This document shows, piece after piece, positions 6,316 to 55,020 of a stretch of DNA of 64,000 bases. The notes under the pieces are model-generated. The model had not been told where the DNA came from. It saw only the letters and a program-made list of their open reading frames with translations, and did not search any database. Origin of the DNA: Candidatus Nitrososphaera evergladensis SR1 (lineage in GTDB: Archaea; Thermoproteota; Nitrososphaeria; Nitrososphaerales; Nitrososphaeraceae); contig NZ_CP007174.1 of the NCBI RefSeq assembly GCF_000730285.1, positions 682,001 to 746,000 on the forward strand. Direction: 5' to 3'. Positions within the stretch are counted from its first letter, which is position 1. Each line of letters opens with the position of its first letter. Made by a program: the position numbers and the translations under genes.

Positions 6316-6383
6316 CCGCGGGCATCTGTAAACTACGGAAAATCCGATCATGGCTATATACCTCCGGAGACAGTGAATAGGGG

Positions 6384-7826
6384 TTGGCCCTGCTTGAGGC
6401 AAGTGCGGCACACAAGAAAAAGACCGTGATCGGCCTTGCGCTAGTTGCCACACTCTCTGCCATAGTCCTGACGGTGCCGGATGTCCTGGGGTTTTCAATC
6501 AGCCTGCCGCTAAAGCTGACGTCGATAGTGCTCCTGTCCGTGTACGTGGTGCTCTCGTTTGAAATAGTGCACAGGACGGCAATTGCACTTGCCGGCGCCA
6601 CGGCGGTAATTGCAATAATCATATCGACCGGGCTTGTTCAGGCCGGCGAGAGTTTCGAGTTCGTGACAGAGGCCATCGACTTTAACACCATCGGCCTGTT
6701 GCTTGGCATGATGATAATCGTGGCCATAATGGCCGAGACAGGCGTCTTCCAGTACCTCGCAATCAGGATGAGCAAGGCGTCAAAGGGCAACATGTGGAAG
6801 CTGCTCGTCATGATGAGCGTCTTTACGGCTGTCACCTCGATGTTCATAGACAACGTGACTACCGTGCTCCTGATGGTGCCAATAACCATCTCCATTTTCA
6901 GGATATTCCGGCTTTCCCCAGTCCCGTTCATACTCGCGCAGGTGCTTGCATCAAACGTGGGCGGGACGGCCACGCTCATAGGCGACCCTCCAAACATACT
7001 AATCGGCTCCGCCGCAAACATCGACTTTAACGCGTTCCTGTTCCACATGGGGCCCACGATAGGCGTCTCGATGGTCGCGTCGCTGTTCATGCTAAAGTTC
7101 CTCTTCCGGAAGGACCTTGCGCAAAAGCCACAGAACCTTGACGAGCTGATGGCGCAGGACGAAAAGTCGCTGATAACCGACAAGGGCGTGATGAAAAAAT
7201 CAATGATAGTGCTTGCCGGCGTCATAGCGCTCTTTGTAATACATGGAAGCCTCCATGTAGAGCCGTCGCTCATTGCCCTCGGTGGCGCAGGCGTGCTGCT
7301 GGTGGCCACGCGTGCCAAGCCGGAAAAAGTGTTTCATGACGTGGACTGGGCGACTCTCATATTCTTTGCGGGGCTGTTTGTAATAATCAGTGGCGCCGAG
7401 CACGCCGGGATGATAGACCTGCTTGCAAACACAGCACTTGGCATAACGGGTGGCGAGCCTACGGTGACCTTCTTTTTGATAATATGGATGTCTGCTGTCG
7501 CCAGCGCGTTTGTGGACAACATACCCTTTGCCGCGACCATGATCCCGCTAATACACGTCTTGAACCAGAACGGAAGCATCGCCTCTGCGTTTGGCGGCTT
7601 TGAGATAAGCCCGTTGTGGTGGGCCCTTGCGCTTGGAGTGGGCCTCGGCGGGAACGGCACGCTGATAGGGTCAAGTGCGGGAGTGGTCGCCACCGGCCTT
7701 TCGGAAAAGGGCGGCAACCCGATAACCTTCAACAACTTTATGAAGATCGGGTTCCCGTTCATGATAATGACGGTGGCCGTTGGAAGCGTCGTGCTGTTTG
7801 TGGACATGATGCTCAGGATTGGTTAA
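6384..7826 (+). CDS. SLC13/ArsB-NhaD superfamily ion permease
   Basis: 480 residues with about twelve membrane segments in two related halves. Family signatures are FIDNVTTVLLMVPI in the first half followed by ATLIGDPPNILIGSAA, and FVDNIPFAATMIPLI in the second half with GNGTLIGSSAG. This pattern is the ion transporter superfamily (ArsB, NhaD, P-protein, SLC13). The substrate could be arsenite, Na+/H+, citrate or other anions; it cannot be chosen from sequence. The TTG start at 6384 lies 27 bases after CTATATA (6354-6360), consistent with a leaderless transcript, so it probably has its own promoter despite following the hydrolase by 68 bases. No arsR or arsC is adjacent. Confidence 0.85.
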   Translation: MALLEASAAHKKKTVIGLALVATLSAIVLTVPDVLGFSISLPLKLTSIVLLSVYVVLSFEIVHRTAIALAGATAVIAIIISTGLVQAGESFEFVTEAIDFNTIGLLLGMMIIVAIMAETGVFQYLAIRMSKASKGNMWKLLVMMSVFTAVTSMFIDNVTTVLLMVPITISIFRIFRLSPVPFILAQVLASNVGGTATLIGDPPNILIGSAANIDFNAFLFHMGPTIGVSMVASLFMLKFLFRKDLAQKPQNLDELMAQDEKSLITDKGVMKKSMIVLAGVIALFVIHGSLHVEPSLIALGGAGVLLVATRAKPEKVFHDVDWATLIFFAGLFVIISGAEHAGMIDLLANTALGITGGEPTVTFFLIIWMSAVASAFVDNIPFAATMIPLIHVLNQNGSIASAFGGFEISPLWWALALGVGLGGNGTLIGSSAGVVATGLSEKGGNPITFNNFMKIGFPFMIMTVAVGSVVLFVDMMLRIG

Positions 7827-51099: not shown

Positions 51100-51203
51100 C
51101 TTAGCAGTGCACTCAATAGCTTGGGAAATAAACGTTTACCATCTCTGTATATAGAGAAGTGAGAAAAACGTTATCACGGCGCCATGCCTTAGTACGCCAT
51201 ACA

Positions 51204-52328
51204 ATGGCGCCCAGCGCAGTGCAGATGGTGAGGGGGCCTGCCACCGTGCAAGTCATTGGTAGGTGTCATGTACTTGGGATGGACGTATCGCTGCGTACGA
51301 TTGAGGTGAGGGCTGGAAAGGCACTGCCTTTTGAACTGGATGCGGACTGCAAGCTTGACGTGCAGGGCGGCGAGTCGTGGATCGCAGGCGCCGACAACGC
51401 CGGCACTTGCATGTGGCAAGAAATCGCAGAAAACATTTTGGCGCTTGGCAGCGCAGCAGCAACAACCGTGGTGGTGATGGTAGTCGGCGCAACAGACACG
51501 GGCAAGTCTACCTTTTCAACCTACCTTGCAAACCTTGCCCTTGGCCGCGGCATAGTACCATGCATAGTTGACGGCGACATCGGCCAGGGCGACCTTGCGC
51601 CGCCGACGGCCCTTGGCGCGGCAGTCATCAAGGAACAGGTTGTTGACCTGCGGGATGCGCAAGCCGGCCTTTTTGAGTTTGTTGGCGCGATAACTCCTGC
51701 CGGCGCAGAAAAGCTGGTGGCGCAAAAGCTAAAGTCGCTCGTTGGCAGGATGAAGAAGACGATGATGATGACGACAACAGCAACGCCTGCAGCAGCAAGC
51801 CTGAAAATAGTCAACACGGACGGCTATTCTGATCCTTTGTACAAGTGGATGCTTGCAAGCGTTGTTTCGCCTGACGTTGTCATCTGCATGGGGCAGGACA
51901 GCAGCAACAACAATAACGACCTTGCCCGTGCGCTTTTGAGTCGGTGGGAGTTGTTCGTGGCACCTTCATCGAGCGCGCAGGTATTAAAAACACATTCTGA
52001 AAGGGTGGGCCGCCGGATGGAGCAGTACATCAGGCATGTCGGAGACGGGCTAGTCTCAAAAAGCACGGACGCGGCACGCTTTTTCTATCGAAACAGGCCT
52101 ATCCCGCGGAATGCCGTGCTTGCGCTTGGACCGGAAGGGATGTTCGTAGCGCTTGGCTCGCGGCGCAGGATCGCCGGCTTTGGCGTGATAGAGTCGATGG
52201 ATGCACACCAAGTATCAATAAGGACGGGCGTGCAGGATTTCTCTACAATCCATGCAAGCGAGATCCGGCTGCGCAAAAACCACGAAGAAAGGATCACCTT
52301 CTTTTCTTCCCAAGCACGGGGTCCCTGA
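51204..52328 (+). CDS. Clp1/Grc3-type polynucleotide 5'-kinase
   Basis: 374 residues from ATG 51204 (MAPSAVQM); GTG 51159 is an alternative. The P-loop is GATDTGKST, followed by DGDIGQGD (Walker B-like) and the switch region VDLRDAQAGLFEF, all as in the Clp1/Grc3 family of RNA 5'-hydroxyl kinases. A low-complexity stretch (MKKTMMMTTTATPAAAS, DNA 51750-51805) and a later SSNNNN run are unlike most relatives. In archaea these kinases are linked to tRNA or rRNA processing. The last 35 bases overlap queC on the other strand. Confidence 0.85.
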   Translation: MAPSAVQMVRGPATVQVIGRCHVLGMDVSLRTIEVRAGKALPFELDADCKLDVQGGESWIAGADNAGTCMWQEIAENILALGSAAATTVVVMVVGATDTGKSTFSTYLANLALGRGIVPCIVDGDIGQGDLAPPTALGAAVIKEQVVDLRDAQAGLFEFVGAITPAGAEKLVAQKLKSLVGRMKKTMMMTTTATPAAASLKIVNTDGYSDPLYKWMLASVVSPDVVICMGQDSSNNNNDLARALLSRWELFVAPSSSAQVLKTHSERVGRRMEQYIRHVGDGLVSKSTDAARFFYRNRPIPRNAVLALGPEGMFVALGSRRRIAGFGVIESMDAHQVSIRTGVQDFSTIHASEIRLRKNHEERITFFSSQARGP

Positions 52329-52953
52329 TGCCAAGGGCTGAAAACGCCTCCAGACGCTGCCTGCACGCGTAGCACCTTTCGCAGGGAAGCTCGCCTTCCT
52401 GATGGCAGCTCCATGTCATCTCTATTGGGACATGCAGCTTGCGCGCAAGCATTATGACAGCCTTTCTGTCCATCTCCGCCAGAGGGAGCACTATCTGGTA
52501 CGGCCTGCCGTCGCACAGCAGGCAGCTTTCTGCAAAAAGCGAGTTCATCTTTTCAATGTACGTTCTGGACGCGTCCTTGAAGAATGACGCGTCGTGGCTG
52601 TTGTGGCCGCCCACTATCCACTTGGCATTGAGGTACTCTGCATAGTGCGCTGCTATGGAGTAGAACATCATGTTTCTTGCCGGCACGTACGAGGCCCATC
52701 TCAGGTCGGAGCCCTTTTCTTTCTTCATCTTGCCACCGCCGTCAAAGTCAGACGCCTCCTTTACAAACGGCACGTCGACCTCTATGACCTGCACGCCGGC
52801 CTTTTCTGCAAGGAGCTGAGTAGCGCGCTTTTCCTTGTCAAGCCTACCAAAATAGTTGAACGTGATTGCGGAAACCGAAAACCTTTCAATGGCCCAGTAG
52901 AGGCAAGTGGCTGAATCCAGCCCGCCTGAGAGCATGACCAGGGCCTTGTCCAT
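52294..52953 (-). CDS. queC: 7-cyano-7-deazaguanine (preQ0) synthase
   Basis: 219 residues. The PP-loop SGGLDS is at 9-14, the zinc cluster WSCHQEGELPCERCYAC (Cys-x7-Cys-x2-Cys-x2-Cys) is at the end, and YVPARNMMFYSIA is the substrate region. QueC makes preQ0 from 7-carboxy-7-deazaguanine; archaea use preQ0 for archaeosine in tRNA. Its ATG directly follows the queD stop (TAGATG), so the two genes form one unit in the order QueD then QueC. Length is normal. Confidence 0.95.
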   Translation of the reverse strand: MDKALVMLSGGLDSATCLYWAIERFSVSAITFNYFGRLDKEKRATQLLAEKAGVQVIEVDVPFVKEASDFDGGGKMKKEKGSDLRWASYVPARNMMFYSIAAHYAEYLNAKWIVGGHNSHDASFFKDASRTYIEKMNSLFAESCLLCDGRPYQIVLPLAEMDRKAVIMLARKLHVPIEMTWSCHQEGELPCERCYACRQRLEAFSALGIRDPVLGKKRR

Positions 52954-53790
52954 CTAACCCTTTTTCTCTTCCTTCTTGACGCCCGCTATGATGTGCGCGC
53001 CCTTGTTGACGCCTTCGTAAATGTAGACGCCAAGCGCCTCCACGTTTGGAGGCATACGCGGCGCAAGCAGCCTGATTATTTCTGTCGACAGGTTTTCCAC
53101 CGTCGCCTCGCCGGGCATCAGCCAAGTCGTCATCTTGGGCAGCTGCAAATTGAAATATCCACGTGGTCCCTGAAATGAGACGTAATAGTGCGTGTCGTCT
53201 TCTTTTTCCAGATACTTTTTGTTGATGAAGAACTTGTGGTCTATCATATTGATGGTATCTTTGATTATGCGCTTTGCCTCGCCAAAGTCGACTACCAAGT
53301 TGTTCTTCATGCTCCCTATTATCTCGACCATGACAGTCGACGTGTGGCCGTGCAACACCGAGCATTTTTCCACGAGCGGAAGTATGTGCGCATAGTCAAA
53401 CGCAAGCGACGGGTCCTCGATAAAGATAGAGCCTGTCTGCGTCCGCTCTGACTCGTCGTAAAAGAACATCGAGTCTATCTCGTCCACTTTGCTGGAATAT
53501 TTAGAGTGGCCTATTGCGACGATGTCAAGCACCTGCATCTCTTCCTTTATCCTGCGGAACTTTGCCGCGTCCGCTTCTGAATCGACGACCTCTATGTGCC
53601 TGCTGCCTGCTACAAAATCCACGCGCACGACCTTGCCATCCGGCAGCGTCACGGGCTGGTCATACTTGTAGTCATGGCCTAGAAAGTCAAGCATCCGTGC
53701 AACTGACAGCTCGGCTCTTGTACGCATAAGATTGCCCTTACTGTCGAGGTAGCGCAGATCGCTGTTCAAAACGACCCGTTCGGTGGGCAT
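52954..53790 (-). CDS. queD: QueD-like 6-carboxytetrahydropterin synthase with extra N-terminal nuclease-fold-like domain
   Basis: 278 residues, twice the QueD length. The second half is QueD: His135 (FDYAHILP), Cys143 and the zinc histidines in CSVLHGH (147 and 149), VDFGEAKRIIKDTINMIDHKF and LMPGEATVENLSTEI. QueD makes 6-carboxytetrahydropterin from dihydroneopterin triphosphate, the first step to preQ0. The first 115 residues (RTRAELSVARMLDFLGHDY, VRVDFVAGSRHIEVVDSE) look like a PD-(D/E)xK nuclease-fold domain with Glu27, Asp58 and Glu67 but Val in place of the usual Lys. Its role is unknown. The gene is coupled to queC. Confidence 0.88.
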   Translation of the reverse strand: MPTERVVLNSDLRYLDSKGNLMRTRAELSVARMLDFLGHDYKYDQPVTLPDGKVVRVDFVAGSRHIEVVDSEADAAKFRRIKEEMQVLDIVAIGHSKYSSKVDEIDSMFFYDESERTQTGSIFIEDPSLAFDYAHILPLVEKCSVLHGHTSTVMVEIIGSMKNNLVVDFGEAKRIIKDTINMIDHKFFINKKYLEKEDDTHYYVSFQGPRGYFNLQLPKMTTWLMPGEATVENLSTEIIRLLAPRMPPNVEALGVYIYEGVNKGAHIIAGVKKEEKKG

Positions 53791-54222: not shown

Positions 54223-55020
54223 ATGTCGCTGCTACGTCAGGAACTAGAGTGCGCCCTGCACGATATAGTAAGAGCCGTCTTGCCGGAAAAAAATGTCGCA
54301 GTCGCGTTTTCCGGCGGAGTGGACAGCACGCTTCTGGCAGTCATTTGCCGCGACCTTGGCAAGCAGGTGACGCTTGTGACTGTGGGGTTTCCAGACTCGC
54401 ACGACGTTTCGTTCTCAAAAGAGATTGCGTCAAAGATCGGCCTGCCGCATAAAGTGGTCGAGCTTGACAGCCTTGATTTCAAAAAAGACCTTGCGCACGT
54501 CCTGCAGACGATAACATGCGGCAATACCTCTCATATCGAGAACTGCATCGCGTACTATTACATAGCGCAAGCTGCCGGCAAACTTGGGCTTTCGGTGGTG
54601 GCAAGCGCCAACGGTTGCGACGAGCTTTTCTGTGGCTACAACGGCTATCGGGCAGTCTACGACAAGGGGGAGTCCGCGATAATGGAGTACATGGAGTCCA
54701 AGATAAAAAACGAGCTTGTGCTGGTGCAGGAAATATCTGCCGTCGCAGCCGAGTTCTCGGTGCAGGTGCGCCAGCCCTTCCTCTCTACCGAGTTTGTCGA
54801 GTTTGCAAAAAAGGTGCCAATAGACCAAAAGATCAGAGGGGCAAACGACATGGTGCGAAAGCACATCCTGCGCCAGGCAGCCCTTTCTTTGGGCGTACCA
54901 GAAGAATCAGCACTCAAACCGAAAAAGGCGTTGCAGTACGGCTCGTATATACACAAAAATTACAAAAAATCTCCGTCCGCTAGGACAGACGGGAAAGAAA
55001 TGAAAAAAAGCGTGGTCTAG
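54223..55020 (+). CDS. PP-loop ATPase related to asparagine synthase (amidotransferase domain absent)
   Basis: 265 residues. The PP-loop is SGGVDS at 30-35, and the later GCDELFCGYNGY is the AsnB-type substrate/ATP motif. There is no N-terminal glutaminase domain, so ammonia is either free or comes from a partner. Such short AsnB-like proteins act in tRNA or cofactor modification as well as in amide formation; the exact reaction is unknown. A TTTTATTC box near 54183 supports the start. Length is shorter than AsnB but normal for this subgroup. Confidence 0.82.
   Translation: MSLLRQELECALHDIVRAVLPEKNVAVAFSGGVDSTLLAVICRDLGKQVTLVTVGFPDSHDVSFSKEIASKIGLPHKVVELDSLDFKKDLAHVLQTITCGNTSHIENCIAYYYIAQAAGKLGLSVVASANGCDELFCGYNGYRAVYDKGESAIMEYMESKIKNELVLVQEISAVAAEFSVQVRQPFLSTEFVEFAKKVPIDQKIRGANDMVRKHILRQAALSLGVPEESALKPKKALQYGSYIHKNYKKSPSARTDGKEMKKSVV

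Follow-up and report, generated by a model that had tools for sequence, protein, structure and literature searches.

The sole QueD of Candidatus Nitrososphaera evergladensis is fused to a predicted PD-(D/E)xK-fold domain with a putative variant active site

Overall organization of the fusion protein

In the closed 2.95-Mb genome of Candidatus Nitrososphaera evergladensis SR1, the only QueD is fused to an N-terminal domain that is predicted to adopt the PD-(D/E)xK nuclease fold and that appears to carry a variant of its active site. With about even confidence, we regard this domain as a putative accessory module that binds metal and nucleic acid. The gene was analyzed within a window of 64,000 nucleotides (positions 682,001 to 746,000 of contig NZ_CP007174.1); it lies on the minus strand, starts with the ATG at 53790, ends with the stop codon at 52954-52956, and comprises 278 codons. 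Its features, in window coordinates, are as follows.

52954..53790 (-), fusion gene of a nuclease-fold domain and QueD (P0001, 278 aa), with uninterrupted homologues in Nitrososphaerales
53458..53766 (-), N-terminal PD-(D/E)xK-fold domain, residues ~9-111, assigned from AlphaFold2, Foldseek, hhalign and the PADLOC candidate PDC-S68
53710..53712 (-), E27, motif I Glu in helix αA, from conservation counts
53617..53619 (-), D58, motif II Asp (V-D-F), from conservation counts
53590..53592 (-), E67, motif III Glu on strand β3, from conservation counts
53584..53586 (-), V69 at the position of the ExK lysine; I, V or L in ammonia-oxidizing archaea (AOA), never K
53560..53562 (-), K77, conserved Lys of helix αB (motif IV), candidate replacement for the ExK lysine, from conservation, coupling, relatives and PMC1913061
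52975..53439 (-), domain of QueD (6-carboxytetrahydropterin synthase) spanning residues 118-272 and including an insert at ~190-228, from PF01242 and Foldseek
53344..53388 (-), QueD zinc ligands H135, H147 and H149 and catalytic C143 (CxxxHGH), invariant in 43 sequences
53236..53241 (-), QueD catalytic dyad D184-H185, invariant in 43 sequences

A preceding sequence-only reading had described QueD fused to an extra N-terminal domain. Homologue searches bore out this fusion, which is recurrent in archaea, and E27, V-D58-F, I-E67-V-V69 and C143-S-V-L-H147-G-H149 all stand at the positions first given; the strand, the adjoining QueC and K77 had gone unmentioned.

Predicted fold of the N-terminal domain

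AlphaFold2, run on a shallow alignment of 41-43 sequences, modeled the N-terminal domain with pLDDT values of about 87-96 across residues 21-90, and of about 90-96 over residues 11-90 with the locus alignment. The model has a helix (residues 25-37), three strands (42-48, 54-61 and 64-69), a second helix (72-84) and a further strand (90-95), an αβββαβ order that corresponds to the PD-(D/E)xK core. The pTM is 0.70 for the N-terminal domain alone and 0.55 at full length, thus the mutual orientation of the two domains is undefined.

Structural similarity search of the model against BFVD using Foldseek revealed phage endonucleases I, a Holliday junction resolvase, and DUF559, TnsA and Vsr-type proteins, with E values down to 2.4e-6 and TM-scores up to 0.62. 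Against the PDB, nothing fell below an E value of 1e-3, and most matches at a probability >0.8 belong to the PD-(D/E)xK superfamily, among them AbaSI, the R2 retrotransposon endonuclease, T7 endonuclease I, AF1548 and DrdV; Bax1 appeared among the PDB matches of the full-length model (probability 0.93). By its description, the exception is a Toxoplasma gondii mitoribosome chain (9g6k_L9), which has the largest PDB TM-score among the matches listed (TMq 0.50). Residues 1-117 have no credible match in Pfam, and searches of the domain against Pfam, NCBIfam and PDB sequences gave matches at chance level only. Both the AlphaFold2 topology and the Foldseek matches agree with the PD-(D/E)xK-type fold proposed from the sequence, and no different fold emerged; by prediction, the N-terminal domain is a PD-(D/E)xK nuclease-fold domain.

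A putative variant active site with a candidate relocated lysine

The three acidic residues of the putative active site are conserved and not a chance pattern. Among 56 fusion homologues, D58 and F59 are invariant (56/56 each), E67 is found in 53/56 and E27 in 52/56, and position 69 is occupied by Ile (44), Val (10) or Leu (2), never by Lys. In a larger set of 177 fusion sequences, which includes a handful of remnants, the counts are 165/177 for D58, 128/177 for E27 and 123/177 for E67, and residues 27/58/67/77 read EDEK in 117, EDER in three and QDEK in three. Compared with the canonical motifs, E27, D58 and E67 are present, the ExK lysine is absent (V69), and the proline of PD is replaced by valine. 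The Lys or Arg in the motif IV helix that marks PD-(D/E)xK proteins with a migrated lysine is found in the sequence as K77.

Position 77 is tightly linked to the third motif: all 123 homologues with E67 have Lys or Arg there, compared to 3 of the 54 without Glu67. In a reduced set of 70 AOA-like sequences, E67-K77 is the third-highest coupling of 528 column pairs. Independent pairs in a tree of the QueD part agree with a joint loss of E67 and K77 in 3.5 of 4 cases, too few events for significance. In DUF506, DUF790 and DUF1626, the motif III lysine has migrated to the helix of motif IV, where it is often an Arg (PMC1913061), and it is the same shift that we propose for K77. These families, including DUF790/Bax1 (PDB 6p4o and 8gy8), have no detectable sequence relation to the fusion and differ in their partners and lengths. 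K60 (of DFK) was also considered as the replacement and rejected, as the host protein has V60 and the Nitrosocosmicus-like proteins keep K60 while losing E27, E67 and K77.

The sequence-only reading had suspected a degenerate nuclease, as Val occupies the ExK lysine position. This argument does not hold: K77 is conserved and lost together with E67, the nearest nuclease relatives share the arrangement, and lysine migration has a precedent (PMC1913061). Because the helix lysine is conserved and such a migration is precedented, Val69 is no proof of a dead domain, and the N-terminal domain here looks like one that keeps a complete variant active site of E27, D58, E67 and K77. A missing ExK lysine alone is therefore insufficient to call a PD-(D/E)xK domain dead.

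Relationship to helicase-linked nucleases

Informative sequence relatives of the N-terminal domain were found only among the nuclease domains at the C-terminus of RecD-like helicases. Across 299 genomes of the phylum, the domain occurred outside QueD only as weak matches to two helicase C-termini (L088 and L089; E values of 2e-6 and 1e-3). The host genome has a homologue of its own (L097, G000:C1:236989-237327) within a RecD-like helicase, and four viral contigs carry helicase-nuclease relatives (L243-L246). The PADLOC candidate PDC-S68 matches residues 6-61 with an E value of 2.5e-5, and a reverse genome search with the helicase nuclease domain recovered two QueD fusions. Using hhalign, the N-terminal domain aligns through its first half with the helicase-linked nucleases, at a probability of 94% and an E value of ~1e-7; the confident region is limited to residues ~15-63 and takes in the motif I Glu and the motif II Asp. 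A response-regulator-like open reading frame (L090) and an RNA polymerase (L091) from the same 299 genomes were dismissed as chance matches.

The nuclease domains of the RecD/UvrD-like SF1 helicases (L094, L095, L097 and PDC-S68) share with the fusion an S-x-x-E helix, a YEYE-like strand, the (P)DF motif, a Glu on β3, the absent ExK lysine and a lysine in helix αB. Their third motif reads E-H-[LF] or E-Y-W, followed by an invariant lysine in the next helix. The PDF and WEHLG of the helicase nucleases correspond to VDF and IEVVD in the fusion; the QueD fusion differs from these proteins in having no helicase, and in an E67-K77 spacing of 10 compared to 17. In the QueD-linked domains, K77 lies in the context K-[FY]-x-x-[IV] and is the apparent counterpart of the helicase-linked lysine, a correspondence matched by hand on a K-x-x-x-[YI] pattern, since the comparison beyond residue ~63 follows motifs and not a confident profile alignment. 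The host RecD-like helicase (an open frame of 1261 aa) has a PD-(D/E)xK domain without the ExK lysine, which is similar to PDC-S68. Searches of viral contigs and phage records yielded no relative of the QueD fusion, and a standalone nuclease (L101) had no relatives in the viral contigs.

The QueD domain and its genomic context

QueD makes CPH4 on the way to preQ0. The C-terminal domain of the fusion matches PF01242 over residues 130-266 with an E value of 2e-16 (60.4 bits against a Pfam gathering score of 22.4), and Foldseek matched it to PTPS/QueD structures with E values from 4e-12 to 1e-4. An alignment of 43 sequences shows no variation at H135, C143, H147, H149, D184, H185 and E259; from E. 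coli QueD, we take them to be the three zinc-binding histidines, the catalytic cysteine, the Asp-His pair and the substrate-binding glutamate. The fusion thus shares with E. coli QueD (PDB 4ntk) and its Pyrococcus horikoshii counterpart (PDB 2dj6) the fold, the zinc ligands, the CxxxHGH motif, the D-H dyad and a Glu near the C-terminus, and differs in its extra nuclease-fold domain of ~115 residues and the insert at 190-228. It scores 53.7 bits against TIGR03367, below the equivalog cut-off of 89.25. We take this cut-off as too strict for such archaeal forms rather than as a biological criterion, because the plain QueD of genus g39 also misses it (77.5 bits).

The fusion is the sole PTPS-family gene in the host genome, and six other AOA genomes have one PTPS gene each, which is the fusion in 5/6 and a plain QueD in the sixth (G159). 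A QueC context is common to known QueD proteins (PF01242, TIGR03367) and the fusion, whose genome also has FolE, QueE and another QueC clustered elsewhere (L263), together with a single-copy TGT. Since the fusion is the only PTPS gene and FolE, QueE, QueC and TGT are all present, its QueD domain almost certainly performs the QueD step of preQ0 synthesis, judging from these gene inventories. Two neighboring genes accompany it.

52294..52953 (-), second QueC, which follows the fusion immediately downstream, its ATG beside the fusion's stop codon (PF06508, E value 1e-46)
54223..55020 (+), divergent Asn-synthase-like ATP-pyrophosphatase that lacks a glutaminase domain and is in synteny with the fusion across most AOA; functional link unproven

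The adjacency of QueD and QueC is also seen in deep relatives. Nitrososphaera-like genomes and G037 have two QueC genes, one beside the fusion and one in the QueC cluster, which in the host lies with QueE and FolE (G000:C1:2289603-2290256, L263:6586-7290); G058, G036, G159 and G333 have one strong QueC each. A gene for a CLP1-type polynucleotide kinase (51159-52328, plus strand) converges on QueC with a 35-base overlap and is kept in about ten Nitrososphaera-like loci. The Asn-synthase-like gene stays beside the fusion more widely than QueC, in most Nitrososphaeraceae- and Nitrosopumilaceae-type loci. As the AOA tested have neither a QueF-like protein (G037 excepted) nor a separate ArcS, with DUF5591 matching only TGT itself, this Asn-synthase-like protein could be the missing archaeosine-forming enzyme.

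This context also bears on defense or DNA modification, in which the QueD-nuclease, together with QueC, would make or police 7-deazaguanine in DNA and cut unmodified DNA. The second QueC adjoins the fusion in Nitrososphaera, the TGT of the AOA has no PUA match, the nearest sequence relatives are helicase-nucleases that include PDC-S68, and DNA modification has been raised as a possibility (PMC6790972). However, each genome has one TGT, the fusion is the sole PTPS, and Nitrosopumilaceae-type genomes have no second QueC beside the fusion; the fusion gene itself belongs to the single-copy core, and its tree broadly follows the host families. A dedicated second TGT-like protein (DpdA) was not found among seven genomes, each of which has one PF01702 gene, although a separate model would be required to detect a distant DpdA. 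With one TGT per genome, vertical inheritance as a core gene and no phage or viral relative, the link to deazaguanine DNA-modification systems suggested earlier found no evidence, and we consider the defense explanation very improbable. In the host, the TGT gene (L267:4801-6330) and a gene for endonuclease V (6317-6946) overlap; this TGT has no PUA match.

Distribution and history of the fusion

Matches to the fusion were found in 43/61 genomes of relatives, mostly at full length, and in 306/380 genomes in an order-wide search. Full-length fusions occur throughout families f1, f2, f3 and f9, and most Nitrososphaerales genomes with a match have an intact, uninterrupted N-terminal domain. Across the phylum sample, fusions with a full N-terminal domain were confined to the order; beyond it, QueDs of this subtype stand alone or carry cut-down N-terminal remnants, as in family f29 (YVDKHGNVLPSYDHLKVAMLLDLLGVRYSV). 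The fusion is inherited vertically in Nitrososphaerales, with a tree that broadly tracks the host families; its origin before the split of the ammonia-oxidizing families is the best explanation. Genus g39 (Nitrosopelagicus-like, with genomes of about 0.8-1.2 Mb) lacks the fusion, and its member G159 instead has a 118-aa QueD without the N-terminal domain, located away from QueC. As a plain QueD has taken the place of the entire protein in g39, the N-terminal domain is dispensable for preQ0 chemistry, as shown computationally for this genus.

The plain QueD of g39, the truncated f29 remnants and the repeated decay of the active site might also indicate a relic, namely a nuclease domain left by an ancient fusion and tolerated as an appendage of no present importance. 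We judge this quite unlikely, given that most matching Nitrososphaerales genomes have the domain intact and that selection on it is nearly as strong as on QueD. In pairwise comparisons, which are non-independent, near dS saturation and, for f10, based on a poor alignment, and which thus serve as supporting evidence only, the median dN/dS of intact EDEK pairs is 0.083 for the N-terminal domain and 0.062 for QueD, and every EDEK pair has an N-terminal omega < 0.5. The respective values are 0.064 and 0.011 in the Nitrosocosmicus-like genus g2 (four pairs only), and 0.495 and 0.186 in f10. The N-terminal domain is clearly under purifying selection and, relative to QueD, is less constrained in lineages without the active-site residues.

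True degeneration does exist in other lineages. The site was lost separately in g2 (GDKE, ADKD), in g12 (KDQN, QDQK) and in g37 (ENQT, ENQA, ESHA); the deep groups f10 and f14 are also without it (HDFE, ETIE, DAVD), where the change may have run in either direction. The active site was thus lost several times with the domain kept, so the protein does not depend on catalysis.

A domain kept despite such losses (GDKE, KDQN, ENQT, HDFE, ETIE), with an omega still low in g2 and with the ExK lysine missing, is consistent with a pseudo-nuclease, which we regard as possible but hold only tentatively. The fold would then serve RNA binding alone, similar to RAP domains, or act as a structural or oligomerization module for QueD, with the acidic residues and K77 being structural or binding a ligand without catalysis. 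RAP domains are restriction-endonuclease-like RNA binders that are often non-catalytic (PMC8190603), and the mitoribosome match to 9g6k_L9 would fit them if that chain carries a RAP domain. Despite this similarity in fold and the link to RNA, RAP domains (PF08373) are ~60 residues long, occur mostly in eukaryotic proteins and have no sequence match to the N-terminal domain. RAP membership was rejected, with no PF08373 among the Pfam matches of 41 members up to an E value of 5. Against a pseudo-nuclease, most AOA retain E27, D58, E67 and K77 as a set, the four residues disappear jointly, and the constraint on the domain drops relative to QueD where they are lost.

Putative function of the fusion

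In the reading that we favor, the QueD half would make CPH4 for preQ0 and archaeosine synthesis, whereas the N-terminal domain would most likely bind a divalent metal via E27, D58 and E67, in addition to nucleic acid. K77 from helix αB may stand in for the ExK lysine and perhaps support hydrolysis; any phosphodiesterase activity is probably weak or specialized. Since a plain QueD suffices in g39 and the site has disappeared from several lineages, the domain is best seen as a putative accessory or regulatory module tethered to QueD, outside the pterin chemistry. The pathway makes a role linked to RNA the simplest guess, whether that RNA is tRNA or the protein's own message; helicase ancestry would point equally to DNA. 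The domain is acidic (net charge -5), which was counted against nucleic-acid binding, but several helicase-linked relatives are equally acidic, and net charge was dropped as a test.

A bifunctional enzyme, combining QueD with an active nuclease that cuts or monitors tRNA, DNA or its own mRNA according to its 7-deazaguanine status, seems unlikely to us; if true, the supply of a modified base would be coupled to nucleic-acid quality control. No description of a QueD-nuclease fusion was found in the literature searched, most subscription papers lying outside that search, and no library used here annotates the N-terminal domain.

The Nitrosocosmicus-like genomes, in which the site is lost, and the Nitrosopelagicus-like genomes, which have no such domain, provide natural controls. 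Ammonia oxidizers rank among the most abundant archaea, and their core, single-copy tRNA-modification enzyme carries a predicted domain of a nuclease superfamily. If this domain is active, it would physically connect base-modification metabolism directly with the cleavage of nucleic acids.
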